A stretch of DNA of 24,131 nt from positions 1 through 24,131 of the IMG/VR virus record IMGVR_UViG_3300023174_000620. One strand, written 5' to 3'. A model generated the notes under the pieces. It made no database searches and was not told where the DNA came from. It worked only from the letters and a program-made list of their open reading frames with translations. Below, piece after piece: positions 1-14,012 of the stretch (position 1 is the first letter of the stretch; every line of letters begins with the position of its first letter). The translations under genes and the position numbers were made by a program. The DNA is from a virus.

Positions 1-1037
1 CTGCCCATATAGGCTTGGTTTGCTGCTGTGCGGATGCCGACGCCTTGCTGCGCAACATTGCTGGCAAAAGTGCGGCGTTCGTTTTCCCTGGCGGTGGCGA
101 ATCGGTCGCGGTTGAGAAGCTCGGCTGCCATGGCGGATTGGCCGAGGCCGAGGCCACGGGCGGATGAGGCGGCGCGGGAGGATTGGATGGCGTCGCGGCT
201 CTGCTCGGCTGAGAGGGAGCGGCCGAGGGCGAGGTCGTTTGCGGCTTGGCCTTCCAGTTGGCCGAGGAGCCCATTGCCTCGGGCTTCATTCATAAGGCCG
301 CGCTCTGCGGCGCTGGCGCGGATGTTGTTAGAAGATACACTATCGACCGGTCCGGCCTGTGCGGCGCGTATGCGCTGGGCTTGGATTTGATCGGCGTTGT
401 AGCCTGCAGGGCCTTGCACATCGTTGACTTGCCCGAGGCGGGCGTAGTCCATCTGGCCCACATCGGCTACGCGGGAGCCGGTTACTTGGTCGGCGGCGAC
501 ATTCTGAGAGGAAATCTGGTCGGGCCGGTAGAGTTGGCCCATCGCCAGTTGGTTCAGCCGGGCTTGGGCAGGGTCGTTGTAGGCTGCTACGCGGTCGGCG
601 ACTTGGCCGACTTGGCTGTAGCTCTGTCCAAGCTGGGCGGAGGATGTTCCGGCATCTCGGATGTTTTGGTTGGCTGCGGCCGTGTATGTGCTGTCTTGTA
701 GTTTCTTGGCGATGTCGCCGGTGTTTTCGATGGCTTGGTCGCTGAGTCGGCCAGCGGTATCCACGGCGGTATTGGCCTGCGCCTGAGCATTTGCTTGGGC
801 GTAGCCGGAGATGGCAGCCATCTCTTCAGCGAGGCTGCGAGGCTGCGGGGTTGGCGGGGCGCTCATACCGCCCATGCCCATGCCGCCGGTGGACATTCCT
901 CCGCCGGACATTGCTGCACTCATGGCGGGTGCACTCATTGCTGCACTCATCGCGGGGGCTGCGCTCATCGCGCCAGCGCCGCCTCCGCCGCCGGACATTG
1001 CCCCTCCTCCGCCGCTGTTGCTCATGTTCATTGCCAT
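1..1037 (-). CDS. Gly/Met/Ala-rich virion protein, C-terminus outside window
   Basis: An open frame starts at the ATG at 1035-1037 and runs without a stop to the left edge, giving at least 345 residues. The first 60 residues are low complexity, built from Met-Ser steps with Gly, Ala and Pro (for example AMSAAPAMSAAMSAP). The rest is rich in Ala, Gln, Asn and Ser, looks largely helical and has almost no Cys. The start lies 4 bases after the stop of the SET gene, with an AGGA about 8 bases upstream. Its position after the fibre and nozzle genes and its composition suggest a structural protein, perhaps an internal or ejected one. That role is inference, as I see no enzymatic motif. The overlapping plus-strand frames here are GC-driven shadows. 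Confidence 0.75.
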   Translation of the reverse strand, partial: MAMNMSNSGGGGAMSGGGGGAGAMSAAPAMSAAMSAPAMSAAMSGGGMSTGGMGMGGMSAPPTPQPRSLAEEMAAISGYAQANAQAQANTAVDTAGRLSDQAIENTGDIAKKLQDSTYTAAANQNIRDAGTSSAQLGQSYSQVGQVADRVAAYNDPAQARLNQLAMGQLYRPDQISSQNVAADQVTGSRVADVGQMDYARLGQVNDVQGPAGYNADQIQAQRIRAAQAGPVDSVSSNNIRASAAERGLMNEARGNGLLGQLEGQAANDLALGRSLSAEQSRDAIQSSRAASSARGLGLGQSAMAAELLNRDRFATARENERRTFASNVAQQGVGIRTAANQAYMG

Positions 1038-1041
1038 AGGA

Positions 1042-1440
1042 TTATTCCTTTTCTAAGAAGTGCTTGGCGTTTTCTGCGCCGTAGTTGAGGGTGATCTCTT
1101 CGCCTGCGGCGATGTCGCGTAGGGCGTAGTGCCGCACCAGTTCATTCACCTGGTCGATCTCGTGGCTGGCGTTGGGGGTGTCGTGGTGGTTGTAGAGGGG
1201 AGCGAGGCCGAAGCCGAGGATGCTTGTGGAGTCGTCGAGGTAGTAGCTGTAGGTCTCGCAGGCGGGGGCTTTGGCGAGTTGCTTCTTCGGCACGCAGGCG
1301 TAGGGAGCTTCCTCGAGCACTTCGTGCTTGGCGATGGGGGCCGTGGCGAAGACACCCCACCGGTGCAAAGGGGAGCGGCGCACGGCGAGCTTGGTCGCGT
1401 GGTAGGGCTCTGGGCGGAGCATGGTGGGGGCGGGGGTCAT
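1042..1440 (-). CDS. SET-domain protein, putative protein lysine methyltransferase
   Basis: This is a 132-residue protein that is almost entirely one SET fold. Visible motifs are GVFA at residues 29-32 (usually GxG.FA), the cofactor and active-site segment NHHDTPNA at 84-91, and GEEITLNYG at 113-121. The last is the usual (G)EEI.(Y)G end of the domain, with its catalytic Tyr. SET enzymes move a methyl group from S-adenosylmethionine to protein lysines. No pre-SET or Cys-rich post-SET region is present, so it resembles small free-standing viral or bacterial SET proteins. Its ATG overlaps the fibre stop by 4 bases (ATGA), and the next virion gene starts 4 bases after its stop. It should therefore be made together with tail proteins. 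The target is unknown; virion or host proteins are both possible. Confidence 0.85.
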   Translation of the reverse strand: MTPAPTMLRPEPYHATKLAVRRSPLHRWGVFATAPIAKHEVLEEAPYACVPKKQLAKAPACETYSYYLDDSTSILGFGLAPLYNHHDTPNASHEIDQVNELVRHYALRDIAAGEEITLNYGAENAKHFLEKE

Positions 1441-2339
1441 AGGGATTCGAGGGAGGCGACGCGGGCGGCTAGTTCTTGGACGGCGGCGACGAGGAGCGGG
1501 ACGAGTTTGCTTTGGTCAATGCCTTGGTAGATTGGCTTGCCGTCAGAATCGACTTCATCTTTGGTGCCGGTGACTGATTCGGGCACAACGGATTGCGCTT
1601 CGTGGGCAAGGAAGCCGTCTATTTTAGATGCGGCAGGGTCGGTCAGCCAGTTAAACCGGCGGACGGGTATTTGTAACAAGCGAGCTACGGCGTCTGTCAG
1701 TGGCTCTATGTTGGTTTTGAGGCGATAATCGGAGGACGTGTTGTAGGAAACAGAATTACCTGTACCTTTTACAATAGAGCCAGCTGCTTGATAGTTGTCG
1801 CCCCAAAAAACCATAAAACTATTTGGGAAAGTATCGTTTTCATTTACGCCTACTCTAAATCCATTTATTGTTCCGAATGATCCTTTTTGGGCACTAATAG
1901 CTCCACCGCTGTCTCGGGCGACGATAGTGTTAGCCGTGTTGGCGCTGGTGGCAGTAGTGCGGGCATTAGCGAGAGTTCCCGCAGTTATGTCGCTGGCTTG
2001 GTGCGTGTGCGTAGTCGGCGTCCTTGCATCCGACAGGCGGAAGTCGTTTGTGATGACCGCAGTGCCGGTGATGGCGCTCGGTGCAATACCCGTGGCTGGC
2101 GCATAGCTTCCAAGTGGTTGTTTGCCTGCTAGCTCGCTTGTGAGATTGGTCACCGCAGATTGCGCCACTTTGTTGGCCGTAGTAATTTGTGCAAGTTTGG
2201 TGTCGGCGATGGCAGCACTGGCAGAAATGTCGGCGTTGACAATGTTGATGACGGTGGCGGCTTCCACCAACGAGTGGAGGCTGCCAGGGGTAACAAGTTC
2301 GCCGTCTCTGAAGGTTTTGCCTTTATTAAGAGTTGCCAT
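1437..2339 (-). CDS. Tail fibre/spike with C-terminal S74 self-cleaving chaperone
   Basis: This 300-residue protein has a repetitive Ala/Thr/Ser-rich shaft. It includes SDARTPTTHTHQASDI near residues 103-118, a segment common in phage fibres. Residues about 200-300 form a Peptidase_S74 domain: SSDYRLKTNI at 202-211 holds the expected Ser and Lys, GFLAHEAQ follows at 242-249, and the end is helical and coiled-coil-like. In this family the domain helps the fibre trimerise and then cuts itself off. The start is 2 bases after the nozzle gene's stop. Residues about 150-205 (roughly 1730-1890) are AT-rich compared with their flanks, which suggests an exchanged receptor-binding segment. Family assignment of the C-terminus is firm; the receptor is unknown. 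Confidence 0.9.
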   Translation of the reverse strand: MATLNKGKTFRDGELVTPGSLHSLVEAATVINIVNADISASAAIADTKLAQITTANKVAQSAVTNLTSELAGKQPLGSYAPATGIAPSAITGTAVITNDFRLSDARTPTTHTHQASDITAGTLANARTTATSANTANTIVARDSGGAISAQKGSFGTINGFRVGVNENDTFPNSFMVFWGDNYQAAGSIVKGTGNSVSYNTSSDYRLKTNIEPLTDAVARLLQIPVRRFNWLTDPAASKIDGFLAHEAQSVVPESVTGTKDEVDSDGKPIYQGIDQSKLVPLLVAAVQELAARVASLESL

Positions 2340-13938: not shown

Positions 13939-14012
13939 TGGTAGCAGGCCACGGAATTGAACCGTGTTCCCGAGGGTATGGGCCTCGTGAGTTGCCGTCT
14001 CTCTCGCCTGCA
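13939..14012 (-). tRNA. tRNA with CAT anticodon (Met type, initiator-like)
   Basis: The 74-base minus-strand segment folds as a cloverleaf. The acceptor stem is TGCAGGC/GCCTGCT with a T1-T72 mismatch, then A73 and an encoded CCA. The D stem is GAG/CTC with a GG-containing loop. The anticodon stem is CGAGG/CCTCG with loop CCCATAC (anticodon CAT at 13978-13980), the variable loop is GGAA, and the T arm is CACGG-TTCAATT-CCGTG. A mismatch at 1:72 and an A11:T24 pair are marks of bacterial initiator tRNA. Against that, the anticodon stem has A-T at 29:41, and C33 and G8 replace the usual T. It could also be elongator Met, an Ile (lysidine) tRNA or a decaying copy. Confidence 0.75.

Follow-up and report, generated by a model that had tools for sequence, protein, structure and literature searches.

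A Phage vSET-like Protein Is Co-Inherited with a Lysine-Free Methionine-Repeat Tail

Introduction

SET-domain enzymes are lysine methyltransferases, and in one case a histidine methyltransferase, that act mostly on eukaryotic chromatin. The viral enzyme vSET (A612L) of PBCV-1 is an H3K27 methyltransferase. An actin peptide with the H73M change is methylated by SETD3, which binds it 76-fold tighter (PMC8537074), and SETD2 is sequestered by the H3K36M histone, which occupies its lysine channel (PMC5335568). Among phages, Stenotrophomonas phage Ps15 has an annotated SET protein (PMC9025141). In T7, the mostly positive N-terminus of gp7.3 surrounds the DNA end within the tail channel (PMC11784390).

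The phage locus described here pairs a vSET-like SET protein with P1, a virion-region protein whose N-terminal tail is rich in methionine. Inheritance of the SET gene together with this lysine-free tail suggests that the enzyme acts on methionine and not on lysine. The SET fold itself is old, and what is new is the enzyme-plus-tail system; no description of a SET/Met-tail pairing was found in the open-access literature.

Genomic Context of the SET Gene

The window, which is the whole stretch of DNA analyzed (24,131 bases), is an IMG/VR virus record whose phage genes all lie on the minus strand. Its genes encode an SU10-type major capsid protein, a terminase, DnaB, a CHAP endolysin, and an S74 fiber. 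The nearest annotated phage, C75C1, shares about 32% in the capsid protein and terminase.

In the direction of transcription, the virion structural protein P626 (2342..4222; PHROG 3287) is followed by a tail fiber with a C-terminal S74 intramolecular chaperone (1437..2339; Pfam Peptidase_S74, E 5.6e-11; PHROGs tail fiber), the predicted SET-domain methyltransferase (1042..1440), and P1 (1..1037), all on the minus strand. Only the 5' part of P1 is present and the gene runs off the window; homologues 55-85% identical to its translation lie directly after SET in related phages. As the original prediction stated, the SET gene is coupled to the fiber stop: the SET ATG (1440-1438) and the fiber TGA (1439-1437) overlap and read ATGA (1437..1440, minus strand). 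The Gly/Met-rich virion gene that it placed 4 bases after SET is P1, which starts at 1037 after a gap at 1038-1041.

More than 50 related viral contigs have a conserved SET gene, and the order P626, S74 fiber, SET, P1 is kept in nearly all of the 53 viral loci of the first scan. P626 serves as the clade marker for comparing SET-positive with SET-negative phages.

A tRNA-Met (CAT) gene lies between the portal gene and a small ORF (13943-14011, minus strand). It was considered as an aid to translation of the Met-rich protein and rejected as part of the system, since a tRNA is present in 1 of 16 related records.

The SET Protein

The minus-strand ORF encodes a free-standing SET protein of 132 residues, in agreement with the original reading of its motifs. 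Pfam SET matches it at E 3.3e-13 (50.4 bits; cut-off, 22.4), the GVFA, NH..PN, GEEI, and YG motifs are all present, and PBCV-1 vSET is its best PDB match by sequence (E 3.6e-13). The AlphaFold model has a mean pLDDT of 90.3. A comparison with SET structures had been proposed, and it returns the SET fold: the top Foldseek match is again vSET (3kma; E 9e-10, TM 0.89 by target length), and the model has 344 PDB matches at E ≤ 0.001, of which those listed are SET enzymes.

In an alignment of 29 phage and cellular homologues, the NH, E, and YG positions are invariant or nearly so, and the NH...PN and Y-G motifs singled out by the original prediction are kept. G29, F31, N84, E115, and Y120 are invariant in the same alignment. 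The catalytic tyrosine is retained, with Y120 equivalent to vSET Y105. In vSET, Y105 and Y109 are aromatic residues that close the lysine channel; by sequence alignment only, the position of Y109 is taken by Asn124.

The SET protein is under purifying selection and is among the best-conserved proteins of the window's phage group, with a median within-group dN/dS of 0.08, compared with 0.14 for P626, 0.28 for P1, and 0.31 for the fiber. Its synonymous divergence (dS 0.25) is below that of its neighbors (0.5-1.0), which suggests spread by recombination. A search for close relatives of the SET protein found none in isolated phages; its only two hits are both records of one 735-kb metagenomic phage genome. 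The SET of this huge phage (L055, 7974-8366) and its close homologues L329 and L330 carry an aromatic YW pair after YG that is missing in the SETs with Met tails.

The Methionine-Repeat Tail of P1

P1 of clade 1, the window's group, is Gln-rich, is about 600 to 980 residues long where complete, and is not located beside the portal. Every SET-positive phage of the group has [A/G]-Met-[S/G] repeats at the start of P1, for example MAMNMSNSGGGGGMSGGGGGAMSAAPAMSAAMS, and these form its N-terminal tail. In the window, the tail covers about residues 1-62 (852..1037, minus strand), is free of lysine, and reads MAMNMSNSGGGGAMSGGGGGAGAMSAAPAMSAAMSAPAMSAAMSGGGMSTGGMGMGGMSAP. Tails hold 6-19 Met each. Among the 600 internal Met of 44 distinct tails of the group, 589 are preceded by A, G, or N and 598 are followed by S, G, or N; Met-Ser pairs number 470, compared with 105 in shuffled tails. 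The Ser codon after Met is AGY in 226 cases and TCN in 244, and this rough equality indicates selection on the protein motif rather than on a DNA repeat.

Gly-richness was ruled out as the key feature of the tail. Some tails (L031, L015, and L012) have lost most of their Gly and retain A-M-S, which makes Met the constant feature. The A-M-S-A-P context resembles the A-R-K-S-A-P context of histone H3K27, the target site of vSET, with Lys replaced by Met. The AlphaFold model of P1 is poor (pLDDT 46).

The original prediction described the neighbor of SET as bearing Gln and Lys, and this does not apply to the P1 tail. The 44 tails together contain one Lys, no His, and no Cys. At least 10 complete tailed P1 proteins, several of them 700-970 residues long, contain no lysine at all, and thus offer no acceptor to a lysine methyltransferase acting on its neighbor. 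Lysine methylation of P1 is excluded in these phages, and if SET works on P1, its acceptor there cannot be lysine. The depletion is limited to P1: P626, the fiber, and the exonuclease hardly differ in lysine content between SET-positive and SET-negative phages, which rules out a general avoidance of lysine.

Co-Inheritance in the Window's Group

Met was counted in the N-terminal 80 residues of P1 only, because the C-termini of SET-less P1 proteins also hold Met. The Met-repeat tail is present in 72 of 72 SET-positive loci and in 0 of 16 SET-negative loci of clade 1: each of the former has a 25-residue stretch with 5 Met or more, and none of the latter exceeds 2 Met in such a stretch. The N-terminal 80 residues contain 0-3 lysines in SET-positive loci and 5-12 in SET-negative loci. 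SET-less P1 homologues (33-86% identical where matched) contain more lysine, usually in a lysine-rich N-terminus, and start with MGKKKKSKQ, MSKKKK, MAKKKK, or other non-repeat N-termini; at some SET-less loci (L116, L225-L227) the N-terminus is only weakly basic, which counts against the function proposed below.

The N-termini also bear on a possible acceptor other than a side chain. Residue 2 of the tails seen is a small one (A, G, P, or S). Removal of the first Met would therefore probably leave an exposed amine, and SET could methylate this free N-terminal amine of P1. The proteins that start with MGKKKK, MSKKKK, or MAKKKK are equally exposed and have no SET, and a single terminal site does not account for 6-19 Met per tail, which makes this very improbable.

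SET and tail are inherited together. The SET state switches 9 times on the P626 tree, and the tail switches with it in 7 of 7 independent pairs on well-supported branches, with none against (sign test, p 0.016). SET is absent from the whole of the longest SET-less records (36-60 kb), and no Met-repeat tail was found elsewhere in the three of them that were covered nearly whole. Because SET and tail are adjacent and one recombination event moves both, co-switching within the clade is partly expected from linkage.

Recurrence in Other Phages

The arrangement recurs in two other clades: as in clade 1, the tail lies directly downstream of SET and is gone where SET is gone. In clade 3, which is unrelated to clade 1, L222 and L221 are close relatives. 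L222 carries SET and a Met tail (MGGMGGGG...; MGGMGGGGGGGMGGGG), and L221 has no SET and a different N-terminus (MSKKQAAKQEARQ...; MSKKQAAKQEARQEAKQ). The two loci have almost the same set of flanking genes, and the rest of the tailed protein is common to both. In clade 2, which is T7-like, the tailed gene lies directly before the portal, the position of gp7.3 in T7. Both SET loci of this clade (L070, L071) have a Gly/Met tail. Of the informative SET-less loci, 44 of 46 fail a loose Met count; the other two (L159, L195) pass it with sequences that are not repeats, so that none has a repeat tail. L139 is tailed, and its contig ends before the SET site.

A further scan added L310-L317 and L319-L321, in which a Met-rich gene starts 25 to 140 bases after SET. 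Among these, L313 appeared tail-less at first look, which reflects a collapsed repeat assembly. Its repeat tail is collapsed with a frameshift at about 10400 in the metagenome assembly, and tail lengths in such contigs are unreliable.

Across 2.7 Mb of viral loci gathered via SET or via relatives, SET is the gene directly upstream of 95 of the 99 Gly/Met-rich ORFs. Of the remaining four, one is L139 and one is the window's own copy, present in opposite orientation; L072 and L326 account for the rest, with SET directly after a fiber that holds a Gly/Met tract. The location of the tract in a fiber in L072 counts against the function proposed below. A SET-independent scan of viral contigs for GMSGGGG returned mostly single motifs in other proteins among the matches listed; eight Met-repeat tails were also among the matches listed, and all eight accompany a SET. 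No Met-tail neighbor was found beside cellular SETs (0 of 80 loci).

The original prediction also named the fiber as a possible target. Clades 2 and 3 have SET without an adjacent fiber, yet with a Met-rich gene, and the fiber was therefore rejected as a consistent partner. The original interpretation is supported in part, as a true SET lies among virion genes and is tied to the adjacent one; lysine methylation of that neighbor is not supported. A host chromatin or surface protein is a possible target.

SET and tail could also be joined by linkage only, in which case SET would methylate a lysine on another phage or host protein and the Met tail would be an independent low-complexity segment that travels by adjacency. 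The 4 to ~140 bp between them allow recombination to move both, and the low dS of SET relative to its neighbors fits such spread. However, every Met-repeat tail found at a locus with a covered SET site came with a SET, across clades whose SETs are only ~45-50% identical. The Met-Ser context is conserved despite differing codons, and the loss of lysine is limited to P1. Some related SETs have no Met tail, in keeping with linkage only, and on balance this explanation is rather unlikely.

These tail-less members of the SET family are the marine group, L082, and the huge phage LR756501, and for L082 and the marine group the sequence covered around SET contains no Met-rich tail. The family is thus not bound to Met tails, and those SETs must have other targets. 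In the marine contigs (L074-L081, L322-L327), the related SET lies near a DNA polymerase gene, in some of them with an integrase-like gene; the Met-rich tail is absent from the sequence covered in two of these contigs. In other phages, SET adjoins an oxygenase-like sequence (L332, 9389-10952; L335, 9185-10252), to which it is possibly fused in L335.

The phage clades are not mirrored in the SET tree, where the SET of the T7-like L070 falls with those of L310-L314 and the SET of L069 with that of L320. This discordance supports transfer as a cassette. A single clade of Met-tail SETs is neither shown nor rejected by a tree test (p-AU 0.25).

The SET-less N-termini of two unrelated clades (L221, 5648-6394; L144, 2937-3998) share a small basic segment that is helix-turn-helix-like (GKSAxQIQxxxG). 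In L314, this segment is kept behind the Met tail.

Proposed Function

Regardless of the chemistry, the tail is probably a substrate or partner of SET. The comparison of loci points to a co-inherited two-gene cassette, and as the leading but tentative reading, SET would methylate the tail Met to a cationic sulfonium. The Met tail would take the place of the lysine-rich N-terminus seen in SET-less relatives. SET would place each tail Met in its lysine channel and transfer the methyl group of SAM to the Met sulfur, which would produce a chain of S-methylmethionine sulfoniums. That the sulfur is the acceptor is plausible rather than probable; the catalytic tyrosine and the fold of SET are those of ordinary lysine methyltransferases, which counts against it.

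A sulfonium chain would carry fixed positive charge and could do the job of a basic tail, as in T7 gp7.3. The basic N-termini of clades 1 and 3 have a net charge of +2 to +9 over 80 residues, and sulfoniums on 6-19 Met would give a comparable charge. It is doubtful that positive charge is the purpose of the modification: a lysine-rich segment is retained behind the Met tail in L071 and L314, and charge replacement is thus not universal. Also rather unlikely is the complete proposal, in which a natural SET protein-methionine methyltransferase produces a poly-sulfonium tail that replaces a basic tail contacting the DNA end, with the cassette having spread between unrelated phages.

The tail Met could instead be pseudosubstrates that hold the SET active site, so that many SET copies would be packaged, carried into the host, and there methylate host lysines. 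SET enzymes are sequestered by K-to-M peptides that occupy their active sites (PMC5335568), vSET, the closest solved homologue, is packaged in PBCV-1 virions (PMC7019647), and T7 gp7.3 is ejected together with the DNA (PMC11784390). Multivalent repeats are suitable for such docking, but they far outnumber what one docking site needs, and docking for injection is unlikely.

What these phages inherit together is a vSET-like enzyme and a segment that offers Met in a histone-like context without lysine. If SET modifies the tail, this would be a natural system of protein-methionine methylation and would give the virion fixed positive charge by a new route. Should SET do no more than dock there, the phages would be making natural use of the K-to-M trap described for cancer histones. 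Two small proteins would be enough to test either possibility.

Comparison with Known Systems

PBCV-1 vSET (A612L; PDB 1n3j/3kma) is the best match to the window SET by sequence and by fold, with 30% identity. Both are virus-encoded, free-standing SET proteins of ~120 residues that lack the zinc-binding post-SET segment. They differ in origin, since vSET comes from an algal virus and the window SET from a phage, and in partner, which is histone H3 for vSET and a lysine-free tail for the window SET. By alignment only, they also differ four residues after the catalytic tyrosine, where vSET has the aromatic Y109 and the window SET has Asn.

SETD3, the actin His73 methyltransferase, is likewise a SET enzyme, one that takes an acceptor other than lysine and can methylate Met in a peptide (PMC8537074). 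Unlike the window SET, it is much larger and has an iSET and an LSMT substrate-binding domain. To our knowledge, Met methylation by SETD3 is limited to an altered peptide.

The likeness to T7 gp7.3 lies in the basic start shared with SET-less versions of the tailed gene in the T7-like clade, and in the position of the gene before the portal. P1 of clade 1, in contrast, is much longer than gp7.3, Gln-rich, and not beside the portal. The oncohistones H3K27M and H3K36M resemble the tail in presenting Met to a SET active site, and in H3K27M the Met is followed by S-A-P, as in many tail repeats. Unlike the tail, which is a natural repeat, the oncohistones are inhibitory mutants in eukaryotes.
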